From Phytohabitans maris (GTDB lineage: Bacteria; Actinomycetota; Actinomycetes; Mycobacteriales; Micromonosporaceae): 64,000 nucleotides of DNA. How positions within the stretch are numbered: position 1 is the first letter of the stretch; each line of letters opens with the position of its first letter. Positions 7,212 through 54,007 of the stretch are shown piece after piece. A program made the position numbers and the translations under genes. The DNA lies in NCBI RefSeq assembly GCF_031085175.1, contig NZ_JAVHUY010000004.1, positions 124,001 through 188,000 on the forward strand, given 5' to 3'. Under the pieces are notes generated by a model. The model ran no database searches and was not told the DNA's origin. It saw nothing but the letters and a program-made list of their open reading frames with translations.

Positions 7212-8276
7212 ATGCGTTACCGCGTACTCGGGGGCACCGGTATCCAGGTGAGTGTCCACTGTCTCGGCGCCATGATGTTCGGTTCGGCGGGCAACCCCGA
7301 CCACGACGACTCCGCGCGCATCATCCACGCCGCACTCGACCGCGGCGTCAACTTCGTCGACACCGCGGACGCCTACTCGGGGGGCGAGTCCGAGGAGATC
7401 GTCGGCAAGGCCCTCGACGGGCGGCGCGACGACGTCGTACTGGCGACCAAGGTGCACTTCCCGATGGGCGAGGGCCCCAACATGGGCGGCAACTCGCGCC
7501 GCTGGATCGTCCGCGAGGTCGAGGCGAGCCTGCGCCGGCTGCGCACCGACTGGATCGACCTGTACCAGATCCACCGCCCCGACCACACGACCGACGTCGA
7601 GGAGACCCTCTCCGTCCTGACCGACCTGGTGCGGGCCGGCAAGATCCGGGCGTTCGGCTGCTCGACCTTCCCCGCCGACGAGATCGTCGAGGCGCACCAG
7701 GTGGCCGAGCGGCGCGGGCTGGGCCGGTTCCGCACCGAGCAGCCGCCGTACTCGCTCCTGGCCCGCGGCGTCGAGGCGGCCCTGCTGCCGGTCGCCCAGC
7801 GGTACGGCATGGGCGTGCTCACCTGGAGCCCGCTCGCCGCCGGCTTCCTGTCCGGCAACGTCCGTAAAGACCGGCCGGTCGACCTGACCACCGGCCGCGC
7901 CCGGCTCAACCCCGGCCGCTTCGACCAGTCGATACCGGCGAACGCCGCCAAGTTCGAGGCCCTGGAACAGCTCGTCGCGCTCGCCGGTGAGCTGGGCTGC
8001 ACGCTGCCCCAGCTCGCCGTCGCGTTCCCCGCCGCCCACCCGGCGGTCACCTCCGTGATCATCGGCCCGCGCACGATGGAGCAGCTGGACGGGCTGCTCG
8101 AGGGGGCGCCGCTGGTGCTCGACGACGCCACGCTGGACCGGATCGACGAGATCGTCCCGCCGGGCACCGACCTGTACCGGGCGGACGGTGGCTGGCAGAC
8201 CCCGTACCTGGCCGAGGCGGCCCGGCGCCGCCGCCCCTTGGACGACCGCGCCGCCGCCTACCCCCCACGTTGGTGA
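7212..8276 (+). CDS. aldo/keto reductase
   Basis: 354 aa from an ATG. The catalytic tetrad of the superfamily is visible: Asp50 and Tyr55 in NFVDTADAYS, Lys80 in LATKVHF and His121 in YQIHRPD. The C-terminal half carries the GCSTF, WSPLAAGFLSG and SVIIGPR segments of the NADPH-binding (alpha/beta)8 barrel. It should reduce aldehydes or ketones with NADPH in the cytoplasm. The MerR-type promoter suggests induction by an electrophile or aldehyde. The TGA stop is formed by the first bases of a dispersed palindrome (8273-8326). Confidence 0.92.
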   Translation: MRYRVLGGTGIQVSVHCLGAMMFGSAGNPDHDDSARIIHAALDRGVNFVDTADAYSGGESEEIVGKALDGRRDDVVLATKVHFPMGEGPNMGGNSRRWIVREVEASLRRLRTDWIDLYQIHRPDHTTDVEETLSVLTDLVRAGKIRAFGCSTFPADEIVEAHQVAERRGLGRFRTEQPPYSLLARGVEAALLPVAQRYGMGVLTWSPLAAGFLSGNVRKDRPVDLTTGRARLNPGRFDQSIPANAAKFEALEQLVALAGELGCTLPQLAVAFPAAHPAVTSVIIGPRTMEQLDGLLEGAPLVLDDATLDRIDEIVPPGTDLYRADGGWQTPYLAEAARRRRPLDDRAAAYPPRW

Positions 8277-29533: not shown

Positions 29534-29588
29534 GGGACCTTCGGCGGCGAGGGGCCGGTCGGCAGGCCAGACTCGGGACCTTCGGCCC
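29534..29588. promoter_or_regulatory. two DosR-like boxes in a divergent promoter
   Basis: GGGACCTTCGGCGG (29534-29547) and GGGACCTTCGGCCC (29575-29588) lie 41 bp apart, centre to centre, about four helical turns. They sit between the nitroreductase (minus, 29434) and the PNPOx-like gene (plus, 29625). Paired boxes on one helix face are the usual arrangement at strongly induced DosR promoters. Confidence 0.72.
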
Positions 29589-44393: not shown

Positions 44394-44918
44394 ATGACCG
44401 ACCCCGCCCGGAGCGTCGACCCGGACGTCGATCTCCACATCCCCGGCCAGCGGCGCGAGCTGAGCCCCAGCCCGTGGCCGGTGCTCGTGGCCGTCTCGGC
44501 CGGCGGCGTGCTCGGCGCCCTGGCCCGGTACGGGCTCGCCGAGGCGGTCCCGCGCCCGCCCGGCGGGTTCCCCTGGGCGACGTTCGCGGCGAACCTCTCC
44601 GGTTGCCTGCTCATCGGCGTCCTCATGGCCCTGGTCGACCAGGTGTGGAGCGGCCGGCGCCTGATCCGCCCGTTCCTCGGCGTCGGTGTGCTCGGCGGCT
44701 ACACGACCTTCTCCACGTACGTCGTCGACACCCAGCGCACCGTCGCCGACGGCGCCCCGGGCACCGCCCTGCTCTACCTGGCCGCGACGATGGCCGGCGC
44801 GCTGCTCGCGGTCTGGGCCGGCACCGCCGCGACCGGCGCCGCGCTCGCCCGCCGGTCCCGCCCCGCCGACCAGGAGCGCTACGCCGTCGCCGGCCAGGCC
44901 CGGGAGACCGGCCGGTGA
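44394..44918 (+). CDS. crcB: CrcB/Fluc fluoride channel subunit 1
   Basis: 174 aa from ATG 44394, 4 nt after AGGAGGAG. Four membrane segments are visible. Family motifs are GGVLGALARYGLA, FPWATFAANLSGC and GGYTTFSTYVVDT, the last holding the Phe/Thr/Ser residues that line the pore. Fluc channels are dual-topology dimers that leak fluoride out of the cell. Two unequal adjacent genes usually form a heterodimer. The 30-residue polar N-terminus and polar C-terminus are longer than average. Confidence 0.93.
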   Translation: MTDPARSVDPDVDLHIPGQRRELSPSPWPVLVAVSAGGVLGALARYGLAEAVPRPPGGFPWATFAANLSGCLLIGVLMALVDQVWSGRRLIRPFLGVGVLGGYTTFSTYVVDTQRTVADGAPGTALLYLAATMAGALLAVWAGTAATGAALARRSRPADQERYAVAGQARETGR

Positions 44919-45277
44919 CCGTACTGCTGGTCGTGCTCGGCGCCGCCCTGGGCGCCCCGGCGCGCTACCTGGTCGACCGGCTCGTCCAGGCCCGCCACGA
45001 CTCCGTCTTCCCGTGGGGCACCCTCGCCGTCAACGTCGCCGGCTCCGCCCTGCTCGGCTTCCTCGCCGCCCTCCCCGCCAGCCCCGCCGTGACGGCCGCC
45101 CTGGGGACCGGTTTCTGCGGCGCGCTGACCACGTACTCGACGTTCAGCTACGAGACCCTCCGCCTGGCCCAGGACGGCGCCCGCTTCTACGCCCTCGCCA
45201 ACATCACCGCCAGCCTCGCCGGCGGCCTCGGCGCCGCATACGTAGGCATGGTCGCCGCCACCGCCCTGACAACCTAG
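44915..45277 (+). CDS. crcB: CrcB/Fluc fluoride channel subunit 2
   Basis: 120 aa from a GTG overlapping the first crcB stop (GTGA). Motifs are GAALGAPARYLVDR, FPWGTLAVNVAGS and CGALTTYSTFSYET. It has the standard four-helix size of a Fluc subunit. Strong translational coupling with subunit 1 supports a heterodimer in equal amounts. Confidence 0.93.
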   Translation: MTVLLVVLGAALGAPARYLVDRLVQARHDSVFPWGTLAVNVAGSALLGFLAALPASPAVTAALGTGFCGALTTYSTFSYETLRLAQDGARFYALANITASLAGGLGAAYVGMVAATALTT

Positions 45278-46086: not shown

Positions 46087-47724
46087 CTACAGGTCGTTGC
46101 CGGCGTAGGAGAGGTTGAAGCTTTTGTTGGTGAGGGGGAAGTCGGGAACGATCGTGTTGGCCAGGGCCACGGGGAGTGCGGGCCAGTTGAGGAACGACGG
46201 GTCGACGACCTTGACGCGGGTGAGGGTGCCGTCGGGGCGTAGCTCGACGCGGTGGACGACGGTGCCGCGCCAGCCCTCGACGATGCCGACCCCGGACCGG
46301 GGGCCGTCGGCCGCGGACCCGGCCCCGGCTGCGGACCCGGACCCGGCCGTGGACCCGGACCCGGCCGTGGACCCGGACCCGGCCGTGGACCCGGACCCGG
46401 CCGTGGACCCGGACCCGGCCGTGGACCCGGACCCGGCCCCAGCCCCGGCCCCGGCCGCGGTCCGGCCGGCGGTGAGCGACGGTAGCAGGCTGGCCAGGAG
46501 CGCGGTCGACGCCTGTACCTCGTCGGCGCGGACCAGGAAGCGGGCGCGCACGTCGCCGTCCTCGTAGACCGGGACGGTCAGGCCGGCGAGGTCGGCGAGG
46601 TCGGTGTGCGGGTGGGCGACCCGGGCGTCGAGGGGCAGGCCGCTGGCGCGGGCGACGTACCCGAGGGTGCCGATGTCGGCGGCCTGGGTGGTGGTGAGCG
46701 TGGCGGTGCCGGTGAGCCGGTCGCGGACGATGGTGTTGCGCAGGGCGGTGGCCACCAGGTCGGCGAGGTCGGCGGCGATCGCCTGGACCGTGGCGGGGTC
46801 GGGCACCTCGGCGAGTTGGGTGCCGCCGGGGAAGACGGCGCCGCGCAGCAGGCGGTGGCCGGTGGTGCGCTGGTTGAGGCGGAGCAGCTGCTCGCGGATC
46901 CGCTGGGTGTGCGCGTGCGCGATGCCGTACCCGACGTCGTTGCAGATGGCGCCGATGTCGGCGGCGTGGTTGTGCAGGCGTTCGAGCTCCAGGAGGGCGG
47001 CGCGGGCCCGCTGCGCCCCGGCCGGTACCGGGATGTCGAGAGCGTCCTCGACGGCGAGGCTGTAGGCGAGGGCGTGGCCGACCGCGGTGTCGCCGCTGAT
47101 CCGTTCGGCGAGGCCGACGCGGGAGCCGGCGGGCTGCCCCTCGAAGAGCTTCTCGATTCCTTTGTGGACGTACCAGAGGCGGGCCTTGAGCTTGAGGATG
47201 GTCTCGCCGACCACGGAGAACCGGAAGTGGCCGGGCTCGATCAGCCCGGCGTGCACCGGGCCGACCGGGATCTCGTAGACGCCGGGGCCCTGGACGGTGA
47301 GGAACGGGAAGGGTTCGGTGGCGGCCAGCGGCGGGCGGGGTCCGGCGTCGGCGCGCATCGGGTGCCAGCCGTGCGGCCAGTGCGGGTGGCGGACCAGGCG
47401 GCGGGGGAGCGGATGGTCCTGCGGGTGCACGCCGTACAGGTCGTGCATCTCGCGCTCGAAGCGGCCGGCCGGGAACGACAGCGCGGCGAGGCTGGGCACG
47501 GTGGGGTGGTCGGGGTCGGTGCGCAGGTGCAGCTCGGTACGGCGGTCCGGCGGGCCGGCGGTGAACAGGTACACGACGCGGATGGCGGCCCCGCCGGGGT
47601 GGTCGGGCGGGTCGTGGTGGGCGGCCACGAGCGCGAGCCGGGCGCCGCCGTCCAGCAGCTTCCGGGCGTGGTCGGCGAGGGTGTCGGCGGTGACGTCGAC
47701 GACCTGGGTCGCGGTCACGGTCAC
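46087..47724 (-). CDS. hydrogenase-4/complex-I-like large subunit (NuoC-NuoD fusion) lacking NiFe ligands
   Basis: 545 aa from a GTG overlapping the previous stop. Residues 1 to about 160 are a 30-kDa NuoC-like domain (FPAGRFEREMHDLYGVHPQDHPLP); the rest is NuoD/HycE-like (VGPVHAGLIEPGHFRF, WYVHKGIEKLFEG, ERLHNHAADIGAICNDVGY). The positions that carry CxxC pairs in NiFe hydrogenases read ERISGDTAVGH and FPLTNKSFNLSYAGNDL, with no cysteines, so no Ni-Fe centre can form. Residues about 429-464 are a GSGSTA repeat linker encoded by an 18-bp tandem repeat, splitting the C-terminal domain. It corresponds to M. tuberculosis Rv0087 (HycE). It may be a quinone-binding or structural subunit. Confidence 0.85.
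   Translation of the reverse strand: MTVTATQVVDVTADTLADHARKLLDGGARLALVAAHHDPPDHPGGAAIRVVYLFTAGPPDRRTELHLRTDPDHPTVPSLAALSFPAGRFEREMHDLYGVHPQDHPLPRRLVRHPHWPHGWHPMRADAGPRPPLAATEPFPFLTVQGPGVYEIPVGPVHAGLIEPGHFRFSVVGETILKLKARLWYVHKGIEKLFEGQPAGSRVGLAERISGDTAVGHALAYSLAVEDALDIPVPAGAQRARAALLELERLHNHAADIGAICNDVGYGIAHAHTQRIREQLLRLNQRTTGHRLLRGAVFPGGTQLAEVPDPATVQAIAADLADLVATALRNTIVRDRLTGTATLTTTQAADIGTLGYVARASGLPLDARVAHPHTDLADLAGLTVPVYEDGDVRARFLVRADEVQASTALLASLLPSLTAGRTAAGAGAGAGSGSTAGSGSTAGSGSTAGSGSTAGSGSTAGSGSAAGAGSAADGPRSGVGIVEGWRGTVVHRVELRPDGTLTRVKVVDPSFLNWPALPVALANTIVPDFPLTNKSFNLSYAGNDL
46333..46440. repeat. 18-bp tandem repeat, six units, inside the hyc-like large subunit gene
   Basis: GGACCCGGACCCGGCCGT is repeated five times perfectly, followed by one variant unit. 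On the coding strand each encodes GSGSTA or a close variant. The number is a multiple of three bases, so copy-number change keeps the frame. Confidence 0.95.
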
Positions 47725-49175
47725 CGCCCCCCGGTCACGGTGGTGGCGGCCGTGTGCAGCAGGTCCTGCAGCGGGCCGAGGCTGATGCCGAGCACCGCGG
47801 CGGCCGCGAGGCCGAGGGCGAGGGGCACGACGGCGGCGGCCCCGGGCCGGGCCTCGCCCGCCGGGAGCGAGCCGGGCGGGCCGAGCAGCATCGCGGTGCC
47901 GTTTCGGGCCAGGGCCGCGAAAGCGACCAGGACCAGCGTGAACGCGGCCGCGACCGCCCACCCCTGCCCGGCGGCCAGGCCGGCGCGGGCGATGGCGAGC
48001 TCGGAGGCGAAGAGGCTGAACGGCGGCAGGCCGAGCAGCGCGACCACGGCCAGGCCGAGGCAGGCGGCCAGGCCGGGGCGCTGGGCGGCGAGGCCCCGCA
48101 CGGCGGCGATGCGGGAGCTGCCGGAGAGCCGCAGCAGGTGGCCGGCGCCGCAGAACGCGACCGCCTTGCTCAGCCCGTGGCCGAGCACGTGCAGCAGGGT
48201 GGCGGTGATGGCCAGCCGGCTGCCGGTGGCGGTACCGAGGGCGATCAGTCCCATGTGCTCGATCGAGGAGTACGCGAGCATGCGCTTGTAGTCCTGCTGG
48301 GCGATGAGCAGCCCGGCCGCGACGGCGAGCGAGGCGAGGGCCGCGACCAGCAGCAGGACGCGCAGGTACCCGGGGCCGAGGACGGCGTCGGCGATCGGCT
48401 TGTACCGCCAGATCGCGTAGAAGGCGACCGACAGCAGGACGCCGGACATGAGCGCGGAGACCGGTGCCGGTGCCTGGCTGTGCGCGTCGGGCAGCCAGGC
48501 GTGCATGGGGGCCAGCCCGGCCTTGGTGCCGAAGCCGAGCAGGAGCAGACCGGTGGCGAGCCGGATCAGGTCGGGCTCCAGGGCGCCGGCGTGCCCGGTC
48601 AGGTGGGTCCAGTTGAGGGCGGCGGTGCCGTGCAGGTCGGCCGCGACCGCGGCGGCGTACACGCAGGCGGTGCCGAGGAACGCGATCGCGATGCCGACCG
48701 AGCAGAGCACCACGTACTTCCAGGCGGCCTCCACGCTGGCCCGGCTGCGCCGGTGGCCGACCAGGAACGCGGTGACGATCGTGGTCGCCTCGACCGCGAC
48801 CCAGAGCACGCCGAGGTTGTCGGCGAGCACGGCCAGGCTCATCGCGGCCAGGAAGAGCTGGACCAGGATCAGGTACCGGCGGGCGGCGGCCGGGGTCTCC
48901 GCGTTGTCGGCGAGCTGGTGGACGCCGGCCCAGCAGGCGATGGTGGCGACCGCCCCGATGACGATCAGCATGAACGCGGTCAGCGCGTCGGCCCGCAGCA
49001 GCCCGGCGCTCACCGCCGCCGAGCCGTTGGTGGCGAGGGCGACGCCGGCGGCGAGGATGGCGGCGGCGGCGCCGACCCCGGCCCAGGCGCCGGTCCGGCG
49101 GCCGGCCGCCACCGTGGTCAGGGCGGCGGCGAGGGGTGCGGCCAGGGGGACGAACAGGGGGAGGGTGGAGGTCAT
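47721..49175 (-). CDS. HyfF/HycQ-like proton-pumping membrane subunit
   Basis: 484 aa from an ATG overlapping the upstream stop (ATGA), with about 13-14 membrane segments. It has the NuoL/M/N antiporter-like core: VEATTIVTAFLVGH, GTKAGLAPMHAWLPDAHSQAPAPVSALMSG, the discontinuous-helix Lys/His residues, and YSSIEHMGL. It corresponds in order to Rv0086 (HycQ). Expected role is proton or cation translocation as part of a membrane-bound oxidoreductase. Confidence 0.88.
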   Translation of the reverse strand: MTSTLPLFVPLAAPLAAALTTVAAGRRTGAWAGVGAAAAILAAGVALATNGSAAVSAGLLRADALTAFMLIVIGAVATIACWAGVHQLADNAETPAAARRYLILVQLFLAAMSLAVLADNLGVLWVAVEATTIVTAFLVGHRRSRASVEAAWKYVVLCSVGIAIAFLGTACVYAAAVAADLHGTAALNWTHLTGHAGALEPDLIRLATGLLLLGFGTKAGLAPMHAWLPDAHSQAPAPVSALMSGVLLSVAFYAIWRYKPIADAVLGPGYLRVLLLVAALASLAVAAGLLIAQQDYKRMLAYSSIEHMGLIALGTATGSRLAITATLLHVLGHGLSKAVAFCGAGHLLRLSGSSRIAAVRGLAAQRPGLAACLGLAVVALLGLPPFSLFASELAIARAGLAAGQGWAVAAAFTLVLVAFAALARNGTAMLLGPPGSLPAGEARPGAAAVVPLALGLAAAAVLGISLGPLQDLLHTAATTVTGGR

Positions 49176-49822
49176 CGGTCGCGTAGCTCTCGTAGGTCGT
49201 CCAGGTCGGTGTCGCCGAACGCCGCCTGCAGCCGGGTGGTCAGCACCTGCAGCACGAGTACGGCCAGGAGCAGGTCGGCGGAGACGCCGAGCTCGACGAC
49301 GAGCGGTACCCCGCCGGTGGCCAGGAACGCCACCGCGGCGATGCCGTTGTCGACCAGCAGCAGGCCGACGATCTGCGACACCGCGCGGCGGCGGGTGGCG
49401 GCCAGGAAGAAGCCGATCAGCACCACGGCGAGGCCGACCGGCGCGGCCCGGGCGGTGGCGGCGGGCGCCAGGTCGACCAGCGGCCGGGCGGCGGCGTACG
49501 CCAGCAGGGTCATCGCGGCCGCCGCCAGCAGGGACGCGGCGACGTTGACCAGCGGCGCGGTCTCGCGCGCGGCCGGCACCCGGGCCAGGATCCGGCGCAG
49601 CAGCCAGGGCAGGACACCGGCCTTGAGCACGCCGACGGCGACCGCGACGGCGAGGGCCTCCGGGTGCGGGTCGTCGAGGGCGAGGAGCACCGCGATGCCG
49701 GCGAGCGCGGCGCCCTGCAGGGTGAGCAGGCCGATCAGGGCGGTCAGCTCCCGGCGCCAGAGCACGCCGACCGCGCAGAGCAGGAACAGCCCGCAGGCGA
49801 GGCTGAGCAGCTGGTCGTTCAC
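49172..49822 (-). CDS. HyfE/HycP-like membrane subunit
   Basis: 216 aa from GTG 49822; an ATG two codons earlier (49828) is possible, but GGAAGGG is then too close, whereas it is 6 nt from the GTG. About six TM segments are present. NuoK-like features include LLVDNGIAAVAFLATGG and an acidic residue in a membrane segment (VELGVSADLLLAVLVLQVL). It ends with a charged DTDLDDLRELRDR. It matches the position of Rv0085 (HycP). Confidence 0.85.
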   Translation of the reverse strand: MNDQLLSLACGLFLLCAVGVLWRRELTALIGLLTLQGAALAGIAVLLALDDPHPEALAVAVAVGVLKAGVLPWLLRRILARVPAARETAPLVNVAASLLAAAAMTLLAYAAARPLVDLAPAATARAAPVGLAVVLIGFFLAATRRRAVSQIVGLLLVDNGIAAVAFLATGGVPLVVELGVSADLLLAVLVLQVLTTRLQAAFGDTDLDDLRELRDR

Positions 49823-49838
49823 CGGCATCCCTTCCCGG

Positions 49839-50780
49839 TCACGCCAGCACGCTGGCGGTGAGGACCGCCAGCAGGCCCAGGACGAAGGAGCCGGCCAGCA
49901 GCTCCGGGACCCGGAACAGGCGCACCTTGGCCAGGAACACCTCACCGGCGGCGAGCAGCCCGCCGAGCGCGAAGACCTTCACCGCGAACAGCGCGGTGGC
50001 GCCGGCGAGCGCGGCCGGGTGCAGGCTGGTCGCCACGCCCCAGGGCAGGAAGAGGGTGGCCAGCAGGCCGAGCAGGATGCTGAGCCGCATCGCCGCGGCC
50101 CACTCGACGAGTGCCAGGTCGCGGCCGGCGTACTCGAGCACCATGGCCTCGTGCACCATGGTCAGCTCCAGGTGGGTGCTCGGGTTGTCCACCGGCAGCC
50201 GGCCGGACTCGGCGAGCACGGCGACGGCCAGCGCGGCGGCGGCGAGCGCGCCCACCGGGCTGATCACCCGGGCCGGGTCGGCGGCGCCGGCGGCGACGAT
50301 CGCGGCGAGGTCGGTCGAACCGACCCGGGTGGAGAGCGCGAAGACGGCCAGCAGCAGCGTCGGCTCGACCAGCGCGGCGATGGTCATCTCGCGGCTGGCC
50401 CCCATGCCGCCGAACGCGGTGCCGGTGTCCAGCCCGGCCAGCGCGAGCGCGACCGTGCCGAGCAGCAGCAGCCCGACCACCACGACCAGGTCGGCGACGC
50501 CGGAGAGCGGGCCGCGGGTGGAGACGTACGGGGCGGCGCCGGCGATCAGCAGGCTGGTGGCCATCAGGACCGGTGGCGCCGCCACGAAGAACACGCCCGC
50601 GTCGGCCGGGGTGATCGGCTCCTTGCGCAGCTGCTTGCGCAGGTCCCGCCACGGCTGCCCGAACCGCCCGCCGGCGCGCCCCTCCAGCCGGGCCCGCACC
50701 GCGCGCATCCATCCGAGCAGCCACGGTGCGAGGGCCGCGACCAGGACGGCCTGCCCGGCGGCGACGGCGTACGCGGCCAT
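49839..50780 (-). CDS. HyfC/HycD (NuoH-like) membrane subunit
   Basis: 313 aa from an ATG overlapping the upstream stop by one base pair of codons. It shows WRDLRKQLRKEPITPADAG, GGMGASREMTIAALVEPTLLL and the acidic loop HEAMVLEYAGRDLALVEW, characteristic of NuoH/HycD proteins at the quinone-side interface. About eight TM segments. It matches Rv0084 (HycD). Confidence 0.92.
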   Translation of the reverse strand: MAAYAVAAGQAVLVAALAPWLLGWMRAVRARLEGRAGGRFGQPWRDLRKQLRKEPITPADAGVFFVAAPPVLMATSLLIAGAAPYVSTRGPLSGVADLVVVVGLLLLGTVALALAGLDTGTAFGGMGASREMTIAALVEPTLLLAVFALSTRVGSTDLAAIVAAGAADPARVISPVGALAAAALAVAVLAESGRLPVDNPSTHLELTMVHEAMVLEYAGRDLALVEWAAAMRLSILLGLLATLFLPWGVATSLHPAALAGATALFAVKVFALGGLLAAGEVFLAKVRLFRVPELLAGSFVLGLLAVLTASVLA

Positions 50781-52798
50781 CACCGCACCGCCGCGGCGAA
50801 CAGGACGAGGATCAGGGCGGCGAGCATGTAGGCCAGGTACCGGTGCACGCTGCCGGTGGCGAGGCCGCGGGCGGCCCGGCCGGCCACCTCGACCGCGGCG
50901 ATCAGCGGCCGGTACAGCCGGGCCTCGATCCGGTCCGGGAGCCGCCGCCGGTACTGCACCGAACGGACCAGGTACGCCGACTCGGCGGCCGGGGTCACGT
51001 CGACGTCCTGCTCCGGCGCGAGTACGTCGTCGAAGACCCGCTGCAGCGGCTCGGCGAACGAGGTCGCGGTGTACTCCATCCGGGCGGTCAGCGGCCCGTC
51101 CCCGCAGTCCCACGCGGCCGCCCGCCGCCGGGGCCGGCCGGCCAGGCGCGCCATCACCGCGGTCGCGACCGCCAGCCCCACCACGCCGGCCGCTATCCAC
51201 AGTGGAGCGATCGTGGAGCCGACGCCGGCCAGGCGCAGGTCGACGGCGCCGCCCTCGAACGGTCGGGGCCCGGCCCGGAGCCCGGCGGTGACCCGGTCCA
51301 GCGCCGGTCCGGCGAGCGCGGGCAGCACCGCCAGCGCGCAGCAGGCCGCGGCGGCCAGGACCATGCCGGCCACCATCGACGGCGGGGACTCGCGCGCGGC
51401 CGCCGCCTCCTCGCCGCGCGGCCGGGCCAGGAAGCCGGTCCCGACCACCTTGACGAACGTCGCCACGCCGACCCCGGCGGTCAGCGCGACCACCGCCACC
51501 GCCACCGGCGCCACGACCGTCCACAGTGTACCGGCGTCGGTCGCCTGGTGCAGCAGCGCCTGCAGCAGCAGCCACTCGGAGACGAACCCGTTGCCGAGCG
51601 GCAGTGCGGCCGCGCCGAGCGCGCCGACGCAGACCAGCGCGGTGGTGGCCGGCATCCGCCGGGACAGGCCGCCGAGCCGGTCCAGGTCGCGGACCCCGGT
51701 GCCGCGCAGCACCGAGCCGGCGCCGCAGAACAGCAACGCCTTGAACCCGGCGTGGTTGGCGGCGTGCAGCAGCGCGGCGGCCAGCGCCACGGCGGCCACG
51801 GCCGGCTGCCCGGCGCTGGCCAGCAGTCCCGCGGCGGCCAGGCCGAGCAGGATCAGGCCGACGTTCTCGCTCGTGGAGAACGCCAGCAGCTTCTTGAGGT
51901 CGGTGGCGACCGCCGCCTGCAGGATGCCGTACAGGGCGGAGAGCATGCCCACCGCGCCGAGCGCCAGCCACCACCACCGCGGCCCGCCGCCGAGCAGGTC
52001 GAAGCCGAGCCGCACGATGCCGTACACGCCGAGCTTGACCATGGCGGCGCTCATCAACGCCGACACGTGCGCCGGCGCCTCGGCGTGGGCACGGGGCAGC
52101 CACGGGTGCAGCGGTACCGCGCCCGCCTTCGCGGCGAACCCGGCCACGCAGAGCACGAACACCCCGCCGCGGACCGGCCCGGACAGGCCTCCCGCGGCGT
52201 CCTGGATCGCCGCGAACGACGGGTCGCCGGCCGCCGCGGCCAGCCACACCAGGCCGATCAGGATGGTGACGAAGCCGGCCTGCGTCATCACCGCGTACCA
52301 GAGTCCGGCCGGCAGCACCGCCGGGCCGTGCCGGTGCTCGACGAGGACCAGCAGCAGCGAGGTGACCGCGGTCAGCTCCCAGGCGAGCAGGAACGTCGGT
52401 ACGTCGGCGGCGGCCGGCACCAGCAGCATGGCGGCCACGAAGACCGGCAGCAGGGCGAGTGGCCCGCGCGCGCCGGGGCCGTGCCCGCCCCGCCCGGCGT
52501 ACCCGATGGCGTAGACGCCGACCACCACCGCGACCGCGCCGGTCAGCAGCAGGAACCAGCCGGCGAGCGGGTCCACCGCGAGGCTGACCCCGGCCAGCGG
52601 CAGCACGTCGGGGTACTCCGCGCGCCAGCCGTGGCCGGAGACCGCCGCGACGCCGGCCGCCGCGCCGGCCGCGCCGACCCCGGCGGTGGCGACGCCGACC
52701 GCAGCCGACCGCCACCGCGCCGGCAGCACCAGGGCCACGGCCGCGCCGGTCGCGGCCAGCACGCCCGCGGCGGCCAACCCGGTCGGGACCGGGTTCAC
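50780..52798 (-). CDS. HyfB (NuoL/N-like) antiporter-type membrane subunit
   Basis: 672 aa from a GTG overlapping the NuoB-like stop (GTGA). The pump core contains FLLAWELTAVTSLLLVLVEH, HPWLPRAHAEAPAHVSALMS and KLLAFSTSENVGLILLG, with the conserved Glu, Lys and His of proton channels. About 15-16 TM segments. The C-terminal soluble part and last TM (about residues 560-672) are as in HyfB. It corresponds to Rv0083. Confidence 0.9.
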   Translation of the reverse strand: MNPVPTGLAAAGVLAATGAAVALVLPARWRSAAVGVATAGVGAAGAAAGVAAVSGHGWRAEYPDVLPLAGVSLAVDPLAGWFLLLTGAVAVVVGVYAIGYAGRGGHGPGARGPLALLPVFVAAMLLVPAAADVPTFLLAWELTAVTSLLLVLVEHRHGPAVLPAGLWYAVMTQAGFVTILIGLVWLAAAAGDPSFAAIQDAAGGLSGPVRGGVFVLCVAGFAAKAGAVPLHPWLPRAHAEAPAHVSALMSAAMVKLGVYGIVRLGFDLLGGGPRWWWLALGAVGMLSALYGILQAAVATDLKKLLAFSTSENVGLILLGLAAAGLLASAGQPAVAAVALAAALLHAANHAGFKALLFCGAGSVLRGTGVRDLDRLGGLSRRMPATTALVCVGALGAAALPLGNGFVSEWLLLQALLHQATDAGTLWTVVAPVAVAVVALTAGVGVATFVKVVGTGFLARPRGEEAAAARESPPSMVAGMVLAAAACCALAVLPALAGPALDRVTAGLRAGPRPFEGGAVDLRLAGVGSTIAPLWIAAGVVGLAVATAVMARLAGRPRRRAAAWDCGDGPLTARMEYTATSFAEPLQRVFDDVLAPEQDVDVTPAAESAYLVRSVQYRRRLPDRIEARLYRPLIAAVEVAGRAARGLATGSVHRYLAYMLAALILVLFAAAVR

Positions 52799-53271
52799 CG
52801 GCCGGACACGCCGCGCAGCGCGGCCACGATCGCCGCCGGCTCCGGCGGGCAGCCGGGCACCAGCACATCCACGGGTACGACGTCGCCGACCGGCCCGAGC
52901 ACGCCGGGGCCGCCGGCGAACATGCCGCAGTCGCGGGCGCAGTCGCCCACCGCCACCACCATCCGCGGCCGGGGCATCGCCTCGTACGTGGTCCGCAGCG
53001 GCCCGGCCATGTTGACCGTCACCGGGCCGGTCACCGTCAGCACGTCCGCGTGGCGGGGCGAGGCGACCAGCCGCACGCCGTGGCGCTCGGCGTCGTACAC
53101 CGGGCCGAACGCCTGGCCCACCTCGATCTCGCAGCCGTTGCACGAGCCCGCGTCGACGTGGCGTACCTGCACCGACCCGGCCAGCCCGGCGGCGGCCGGC
53201 AACGGCTCCGGACGGGGCGTCGCGGGCTGCGCCACCCGCCCCCGCTCGCGGATCCTCCTGACCAGCCCCAC
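52795..53271 (-). CDS. NuoB/HycG-like small subunit with [4Fe-4S] site
   Basis: 158 aa from GTG 53271, with GGAAGGG 8 nt upstream. Cysteines are arranged as in the N2-cluster subunit: SCNGCEIE, VGDCARDCG and LVPGCPPEP. It would take electrons to or from quinone next to the NuoD-like subunit. It is the first gene of the six-gene operon and matches Rv0082. The upstream palindrome (53296-53315) probably controls it. Confidence 0.88.
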   Translation of the reverse strand: MGLVRRIRERGRVAQPATPRPEPLPAAAGLAGSVQVRHVDAGSCNGCEIEVGQAFGPVYDAERHGVRLVASPRHADVLTVTGPVTVNMAGPLRTTYEAMPRPRMVVAVGDCARDCGMFAGGPGVLGPVGDVVPVDVLVPGCPPEPAAIVAALRGVSGR

Positions 53272-53295
53272 GCCTACACCCTTCCTGACTTCACG

Positions 53296-53315
53296 AGTTG
53301 CGAAGTTTAGCAACT
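53296..53315. promoter_or_regulatory. AT-rich palindromic operator candidate upstream of the hyc-like operon
   Basis: AGTTGCGAAGTTTAGCAACT is a 20-bp dyad (AGTTGC/GCAACT arms, with inner AA and TT also symmetric). It stands out in 73% GC surroundings and starts 25 nt upstream of the first gene's start codon. Shape and position fit a winged-helix (ArsR/SmtB or similar) repressor. In M. tuberculosis the ArsR-type Rv0081 is encoded next to the equivalent operon; no such regulator gene is seen here. Confidence 0.6.
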
Positions 53316-53398
53316 GGTTATAACCGCAGCGGAGCCAGGGGCGGCGTTGTGAGGCGGTCGTACAGTGGCGTGGCCGGAGGTACGGGAAGGGATGGGCC

Positions 53399-54007
53399 AT
53401 GGGTCTGTTCGATCGGTTCAAGCGGATCTCGGATCCGGTCGAGGGCTCGGCCCGCGTGGTGTCCGCCACCGGGGCGCCGGACGGCCAGGGTTCGGCGGCG
53501 TGCGGCATGCATCTGGTGGTGACCGTGCCGGGCGTGCCCGCGTTCGTCGTCCAGGGGACCTACCTGGTGAAGATGGCCAAGTGGCCGTGGCCGGGCCAGG
53601 TCCTGCCGATCGTGGCGTCCCGCTCGGAGCCGGCCCGGTTCAAGATCCGGTGGGACCTGGTCCCGACCGGCAGCCAGGCCGCCGCCGAGCGGGCCGCCCG
53701 GCTCGCCGAGTCGCTCAACTCACCCACCCCCGCCCCGGTCTGGCCGGCGCCGGAGGGGCAGCAGCCCCGCCCCGACGTCGGCGTCGCCGGGCCGGTCTTC
53801 GTCAACGGGCGCCCCGCCACCGCCGCCGAGGCCGACCAGATCGCCGCCATGCTCGGCGCCGGCCTGCGCGGTGACGGCGGCGCACCCGCGGGCGGGCAGG
53901 ACCGGCTCGAGCGGCTGGAGCGGCTGGCCGCGCTGCACCGGTCCGGCGCGATCTCCGCCGCCGAGTACGAGCGCCTCAAGGCGGAGATCCTCGATGGCCG
54001 GGGATGA
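53399..54007 (+). CDS. SHOCT-domain protein
   Basis: 202 aa from an ATG with GGAAGGGATGG upstream. The C-terminal 30 residues (RLERLAALHRSGAISAAEYERLKAEIL) are a SHOCT domain, a short helical oligomerisation motif. The N-terminal 105 residues form a beta-rich domain (VPGVPAFVVQGTYLVKMAKWPWPGQVLPIV) linked by a Pro-rich spacer. Function unknown. It is divergent from the hyc-like operon. Confidence 0.82.
   Translation: MGLFDRFKRISDPVEGSARVVSATGAPDGQGSAACGMHLVVTVPGVPAFVVQGTYLVKMAKWPWPGQVLPIVASRSEPARFKIRWDLVPTGSQAAAERAARLAESLNSPTPAPVWPAPEGQQPRPDVGVAGPVFVNGRPATAAEADQIAAMLGAGLRGDGGAPAGGQDRLERLERLAALHRSGAISAAEYERLKAEILDGRG

Follow-up and report, generated by a model that had tools for sequence, protein, structure and literature searches.

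Marreiros 2013 is said to be the paper in which the Ehr complexes were originally described, and He 2011 reportedly presented Rv0081-Rv0087 of Mycobacterium tuberculosis as "formate hydrogenlyase-like". Both are relatives of the six-gene operon described here, which lies on the minus strand at 46087-53271 of a 64,000-nucleotide stretch of DNA (the window) from Phytohabitans maris (contig NZ_JAVHUY010000004.1, positions 124,001 to 188,000). The Ehr complexes are group-4-like complexes without NiFe motifs and with unknown function (PMC6349859, PMC10284858). They have been found in Nitrospira, Margulisbacteria and relatives, some of them with suggested formate dehydrogenase (FDH) partners (PMC6349859, PMC10284858), and are left out of HydDB, which treats them as homologues of hydrogenases without H2 metabolism (PMC5037454). 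In M. tuberculosis, induction of the operon accompanies the dormancy programme, and its label has been that of a formate hydrogenlyase or [NiFe] hydrogenase (PMC2799521, PMC6901956). Thus, Ehr as a named kind of complex is already known, as is the M. tuberculosis operon, which is still called a putative hydrogenase (PMC2799521, PMC6901956). New relative to this literature are a replacement signature that extends over the whole clade, the finding that maturation genes are not detectable in a genome which has retained the operon, and a near-exclusive operator with a relocated regulator.

The P. maris operon almost certainly encodes an Ehr-type member of the complex I superfamily, for which actinobacterial Ehr complex is the most fitting designation. 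It shares with the described Ehr complexes a group-4-like large subunit without the Ni-binding cysteine motifs and antiporter-like membrane subunits, here with intact ion-path residues. Compared with the Ehr complexes of Nitrospira and Margulisbacteria, as far as their descriptions go, it is actinobacterial, comprises six genes and has an ArsR-type operator that is near-exclusive as well as a replacement signature that is defined, and no FDH-type or ferredoxin genes were found nearby. The operon consists of six open reading frames (ORFs), the start and stop codons of which overlap or nearly so:

52795..53271, minus strand: small subunit (NuoB/HycG/Rv0082-like), 158 aa, Oxidored_q6 domain
50780..52798, minus strand: HyfB/HycC-like antiporter subunit (Rv0083-like), 672 aa, Proton_antipo_M domain
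49839..50780, minus strand: HyfC/HycD/NuoH-like membrane anchor (hycD, Rv0084-like), NADHdh domain, PF00146
49172..49828, minus strand: HyfE-like membrane subunit (hycP, Rv0085-like), 218 aa
47721..49175, minus strand: HyfF-like antiporter subunit (hycQ, Rv0086-like), 484 aa, Proton_antipo_M domain
46087..47724, minus strand: large subunit, a NuoC-like and NuoD/HycE-like fusion (hycE, Rv0087-like), 545 aa, Complex1_30kDa and Complex1_49kDa domains

The small-subunit gene starts with GTG behind the ribosome-binding site AGGAAGG. The HyfB-, HyfE- and HyfF-like ORFs reach 533, 69 and 356 bits against the NCBIfam models for hydrogenase 4 subunit B (PRK06521), membrane subunit and subunit F, respectively. 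These values lie below the cut-offs of 667, 136 and 610 bits, and the ORFs are therefore regarded as relatives of the named E. coli subunits. HycC and HycD are the best solved relatives of the HyfB-like and HyfC-like subunits.

The order Rv0082 / Rv0083 / hycD / hycP / hycQ / hycE is annotated for M. tuberculosis (PMC6901956). An earlier sequence-only reading of the window had seen this order in the P. maris operon, and the two are indeed identical, M. tuberculosis being compared by its annotation (PMC6901956). Complete six-gene sets are present in 68 of 80 named actinobacterial loci, mycobacteria among them, with order and strand identical in all 68; the mycobacterial homologues also have replaced ligands. 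The same set without HyfA/D/H/J occurs in an operon of Methylocalor and on a Rhizobium plasmid, and in Azospirillum thermophilum the HyfE position carries no annotation.

In an alignment of the large subunit with E. coli HycE, the Ni ligands C241, C244, C531 and C534 are replaced by S210, T213, S539 and G542. Among 81 actinobacterial sequences, position 210 is always Ser and position 542 always Gly, position 213 is Thr in 75, Ser in five and Pro in one, and position 539 is Ser in 80 and Thr in one. Not a single cysteine is found at any of the four positions in these 81 homologues, so that the claim of the sequence-only reading that every Ni ligand is missing holds well beyond the one protein. 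HycE/HyfG retain CGIC / DPCYSC and NuoD proteins show the complex I letters. The C-terminus reads NKSFNLSYAGNDL-stop, and the DPCxxC ligands and the cleaved tail of group 4 [NiFe] hydrogenases are not present. The mature end of HycE is set by a proteolytic cleavage site. Since the large subunit of P. maris stops at this end, there is no tail on which a maturation protease could act.

The replaced site belongs to a pocket signature, S/A-G-D ... NKS-x-N-x-S/N-Y-A/S-G-N/H-DL, which is found with small variations in distant Actinobacteria as well as in Alpha-, Beta- and Gammaproteobacteria (Azospirillum, Rhizobium, Cupriavidus, Paraburkholderia and Methylocalor). Here, Ser210 is Ala in Paraburkholderia, and the proteobacterial rows have His in place of N543; one distant sequence (L124) is partial, its C-terminal part being absent from the alignment. 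The HycE proton-path residues E193, H284, R395, E437 and R478, whose roles have been described (PMC9474812), are kept as E163, H253, R359, E402 and R486. The canopy Asp529 of HycE is replaced by Asn537, and Asp192 by Ile162.

HycE is the best solved relative of the large subunit by sequence and by fold. The AlphaFold model of the isolated chain (predicted template modelling score, pTM, 0.82) matches HycE best (7z0s_E, Z 40.9 over 473 residues), which answers the call of the sequence-only reading for a structure prediction as far as the large subunit alone is concerned. Confidence is low in the beta1-beta2 loop and in the C-terminal tail. The model further contains a disordered stretch at 427-469 (predicted local confidence, pLDDT, below 50), which coincides with the following feature:

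46308..46451, minus strand: 18-bp tandem repeat encoding GSGSTA linker units inside the large subunit, a disordered linker

The repeat is not present in the compared homologues and the linker plays no part in the mechanism.

A tree of large subunits was built with the Ni-ligand columns left out. All 33 Ehr-type proteins form one clade (support 100/98), beside HycE/HyfG and apart from complex I; the joint group with HycE/HyfG has a support of 98/94, and MbhL sits on a long branch. This places the operon beside the group 4 hydrogenases, the comparison that had been suggested as a check. The proteobacterial six-gene sets fall within the same clade as the actinobacterial operon. One signature common to 81 of 81 actinobacterial homologues and to relatives in three proteobacterial classes suggests an ancient replacement; the simplest reading is that the Ni site was lost once, anciently, and was then held under strong constraint. 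A decaying or mis-sequenced hydrogenase operon would offer another explanation, for which the same-genus copies could be quoted: one carries an in-frame TGA near the end (L007 of genome G004) and in another the reading frame is broken (L012 of genome G005), both possibly assembly errors. In P. maris, however, the ORFs are intact and overlapping, and conservation of the replacement signature in 81 sequences and in Proteobacteria refutes this explanation, to which practically no credence is left. Separately, the P. maris genome and many relatives possess a second, divergent NuoD gene (ANRHDWL / MFFVVGDIDK; contig C10, locus L002) within a separate complex-I-like cluster.

At present the M. tuberculosis homologue is annotated as a [NiFe] hydrogenase or formate hydrogenlyase, which would then have to use unusual ligands. 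Neither HypD nor a HycI-type protease has a match in the source genome, which is 97% complete in 95 contigs, leaving an assembly gap possible. The sole PF00374 match is the large subunit of the operon itself, below the cut-off, and no other [NiFe] large subunit was found. One relative (G020) likewise has no match to HypD, HycI-type protease or another NiFe large subunit, its own Ehr protein matching PF00374 above the cut-off. Other operon-bearing relatives do have HypD and true hydrogenases, so that the operon is independent of the NiFe machinery. In a further genome (G039), NiFe large-subunit matches are present and no HypD match was obtained at E 0.001. The lack of a NiFe site is thus supported independently by the lack of detectable maturation genes, and together with the domain matches this sustains the view of the sequence-only reading that a complex-I/hydrogenase-4-like operon without a NiFe site is present.

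Formate hydrogenlyase and hydrogenase 4 of E. coli (HycE, HyfG) are the closest solved relatives in fold and sequence, and they share the HyfB, C, E and F subunits and the fused C-D large subunit; rv0082-rv0087 are also still termed a putative [NiFe]-hydrogenase (PMC6901956). In contrast to the E. coli complexes, the operon has the small-subunit gene first and lacks the Ni ligands, the C-terminal extension, HyfA/D/H/J and HycB/F. With all four cysteines gone in 81 of 81 sequences, the extension absent, HypD, HycI and another NiFe large subunit not found in the source genome or in G020, and a motif scan of the window and the surroundings of 80 loci without any ferredoxin-type subunit, a [NiFe] enzyme is strongly disfavoured and very improbable.

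The remaining predicted redox centre is the proximal cluster. The cysteines C44, C47, C111 and C141 of the small subunit are invariant in 48 of 48 sequences, which confirms that the cluster cysteines are kept; they are predicted to ligate the proximal [4Fe-4S] cluster. The CxxC spacing (C44-x2-C47) is of the hydrogenase type, the motif aligns without gaps to MbhJ, and the tandem cysteines of NuoB are not present. The sulfane reductase MBS of P. furiosus (6u8y) is a precedent for a NiFe-less complex of the superfamily that performs redox chemistry at the proximal cluster (PMC7684303), and like the operon it lacks the quinone residues. However, MBS has the ferredoxin-type MbsN and a proximal cluster with three cysteines, whereas no such subunit was found for the operon and its small subunit, ungapped to MbhJ, has four invariant cysteines instead of a shortened three-cysteine motif.

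The pump side of the complex is intact, as had been proposed. Taking conservation of at least 97% in 73-79 loci as invariant, this applies to E141, K224 and K353 of the HyfB-like subunit, E129, K218 and K337 of the HyfF-like subunit, and E194, E208, E214 and E219 of the HyfC-like subunit.

A stripped-down complex I, transferring electrons from a ferredoxin-like donor to menaquinone, would fit the NuoH- and NuoD-like architecture of the chamber, the NuoD fold and the retained canopy Arg. Nevertheless, the residues which hold the quinone head group in complex I (H38 and Y87 of Nqo4) are both replaced, by I162 and G211, the canopy Asp is Asn537, and the large subunit groups with hydrogenases and not with complex I in the tree. 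A menaquinone oxidoreductase is considered quite unlikely, and quinone, which the sequence-only reading had listed among possible carriers, is weakened. The operon also differs from respiratory complex I in that the tandem NuoB cysteines are missing and that a NuoI-type subunit with two clusters was not found nearby by motif scan.

The question of how electrons enter concerns all redox explanations. No ORF with two [4Fe-4S] motifs was detected by motif scan near the 80 loci or in the window, distant partners not being searched, so that counterparts of HyfA, HyfH, HycB, HycF and NuoI are not seen nearby. Neighbourhood clustering likewise gave no hidden electron-input gene around the operon, the rest of the genome not being searched, and returned arsR as the only strong recurrent neighbour. 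It follows that the donor comes from elsewhere, or that there is none. The statement of the sequence-only reading that the complex must use another electron carrier is too strong, while its view that the natural reaction is undetermined is upheld. It had not noted that the complex belongs to the already named Ehr kind.

The complex could also be an Mrp-like non-redox H+/cation antiporter with a role in the homeostasis of pH or ions; its hydrogenase-like arm would then be only a structural or regulatory plug. The failure to find an electron-input subunit near any of the 80 loci, the similarity of the antiporter subunits to MrpA/D and the presence of a single cluster would agree with this. A plug, however, would need neither cluster cysteines invariant in 48 of 48 sequences nor a pocket signature kept in two phyla, and such an antiporter appears unlikely.

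We rather favour, with some reserve, a redox-driven ion pump whose only centre is the proximal cluster and whose reaction site is the remodelled protonatable pocket. The six subunits would stem from that side of the complex I superfamily to which the group 4 hydrogenases belong, the [NiFe] site having been swapped, once and anciently, for a strictly conserved polar pocket. A soluble low-potential donor would then pass electrons directly into the proximal [4Fe-4S] cluster, from where they would reduce a protonatable acceptor in the pocket, and this reaction would drive ion pumping via the HyfC-like subunit into the HyfB- and HyfF-like subunits. Alternatively, the complex might run in reverse, spending the gradient. 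As a tentative first guess, the donor could be a soluble ferredoxin, docking where NuoI/HycF would sit. Several points weigh against such a pump. The literature surveyed here offered no bacterial Ehr with a biochemical activity, and donor and acceptor are without direct support. One cluster and no ferredoxin subunit leave the electron path incomplete, so that the role might be a non-redox one. Moreover, the proximal cluster is by its sequence fully ligated by cysteines, unlike that of MBS, and the chemistry of MBS is therefore not simply transferable.

Regulation of the operon probably involves a palindrome directly upstream and a regulator gene elsewhere in the genome:

53298..53313, minus strand: palindrome TTGCTAAACTTCGCAA, operator and predicted ArsR site, upstream of the first operon gene at a distance of about 27 bp
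about 7784-8125 of locus L107 (contig C37 of the source genome): Rv0081-like arsR at its relocated position, with operator TTGCTAAATTTGGCAA and a promoter region closely resembling the one of the operon

Within the 9.87 Mb genome the exact operator TTGCTAAnnTTnGCAA has only two sites. The second, on another contig, precedes the sole close ArsR homologue by about 120 bp; further regulon members of the exact operator were not found in the source genome. Of 67 testable loci, 51 have an Rv0081-like arsR gene immediately ahead of the operon, and a TTGC-N8-GCAA palindrome precedes the operon in 37 of 66. The density of this palindrome is 0.68 per kb upstream of the operon, compared with 0.011 per kb elsewhere in these loci, a 63-fold enrichment. 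In the genomes of seven relatives the exact operator is almost exclusively found at the operon, and the extra site in one of these (G240) lies in front of another arsR-like gene. With the operator kept both at the operon and at the distant arsR, the gene has evidently been relocated while the predicted site remained in place. ArsR probably binds this operator, and the repressor would act in trans in P. maris. The operon thus resembles the M. tuberculosis locus, with its annotated six-gene order and upstream ArsR-family regulator, with the difference that arsR is on another contig here and the operator is present at both places. A DevR/DosR-type box, GGGAC-N5-GTCCC with two mismatches allowed, is not found at 53272-53400 upstream of the operon, and its frequency in the window is not above chance.

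Turning to the neighbourhood, the minus strand at 20970-44137 looks like a fermentation or low-oxygen island. It contains cydAB-like genes (by reading), a cation P-type ATPase, a nitroreductase, pyruvate formate-lyase (PFL, PflB) and its activase (PflA), a GNAT and ADP-forming acyl-CoA synthetase, phosphoketolase, alcohol dehydrogenase and pyruvate phosphate dikinase (by reading). The island is not kept next to the operon in relatives: PFL, phosphoketolase, the alcohol dehydrogenase and the dikinase are missing there in four of them and are present in 0-2 of the 80 loci. They are therefore no evidence for a formate reaction, and a formate link via PFL was rejected. As a motif scan also found no FDH electron-transfer subunits near the 80 loci or in the window, formate, another carrier listed by the sequence-only reading, finds little support. 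Exact matches to GGGACYnnnGGnCCY, which resembles a DevR/OsdR-type box, are located at 29575, 33155 and 39961, two of which precede pflB and phosphoketolase by roughly 50-75 bp; the one-mismatch pattern is not above chance over the window. Two adjoining FluC/CrcB-like membrane proteins (by reading of ORFs) follow on the plus strand at 44394-45277.

Outside the window, a full six-gene Ehr operon is carried by the mobilizable plasmid pRZP3 of Rhodococcus sp. ZPP (L117) amid insertion sequence elements, with ctaD a few kb upstream; a ctaD-like gene lies near the operon in the window as well. Candidatus Mycobacterium methanotrophicum has two Ehr operons in one genome (L036 and L103), and the large-subunit stretch of L036, as returned, contains two stops.

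The ligands replaced throughout, and two operon-keeping genomes in which HypD, HycI protease and any other [NiFe] large subunit are not detectable, argue that the label formate hydrogenlyase or [NiFe] hydrogenase is wrong for the whole family. It might be, although we put this forward with considerable caution, that a branch of the complex I superfamily is seen here which is free of a ferredoxin subunit, has a single cluster and its own catalytic pocket, performs a redox reaction unlike the known hydrogen, quinone and sulfane ones, extends from Actinobacteria to Proteobacteria and possesses its own ArsR-type switch in Actinobacteria. The residues and the operator defined here make the question of the reaction testable. 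If the reaction is found, it would be new chemistry for the complex I superfamily and would explain a hypoxia-linked energy device in many actinomycetes.

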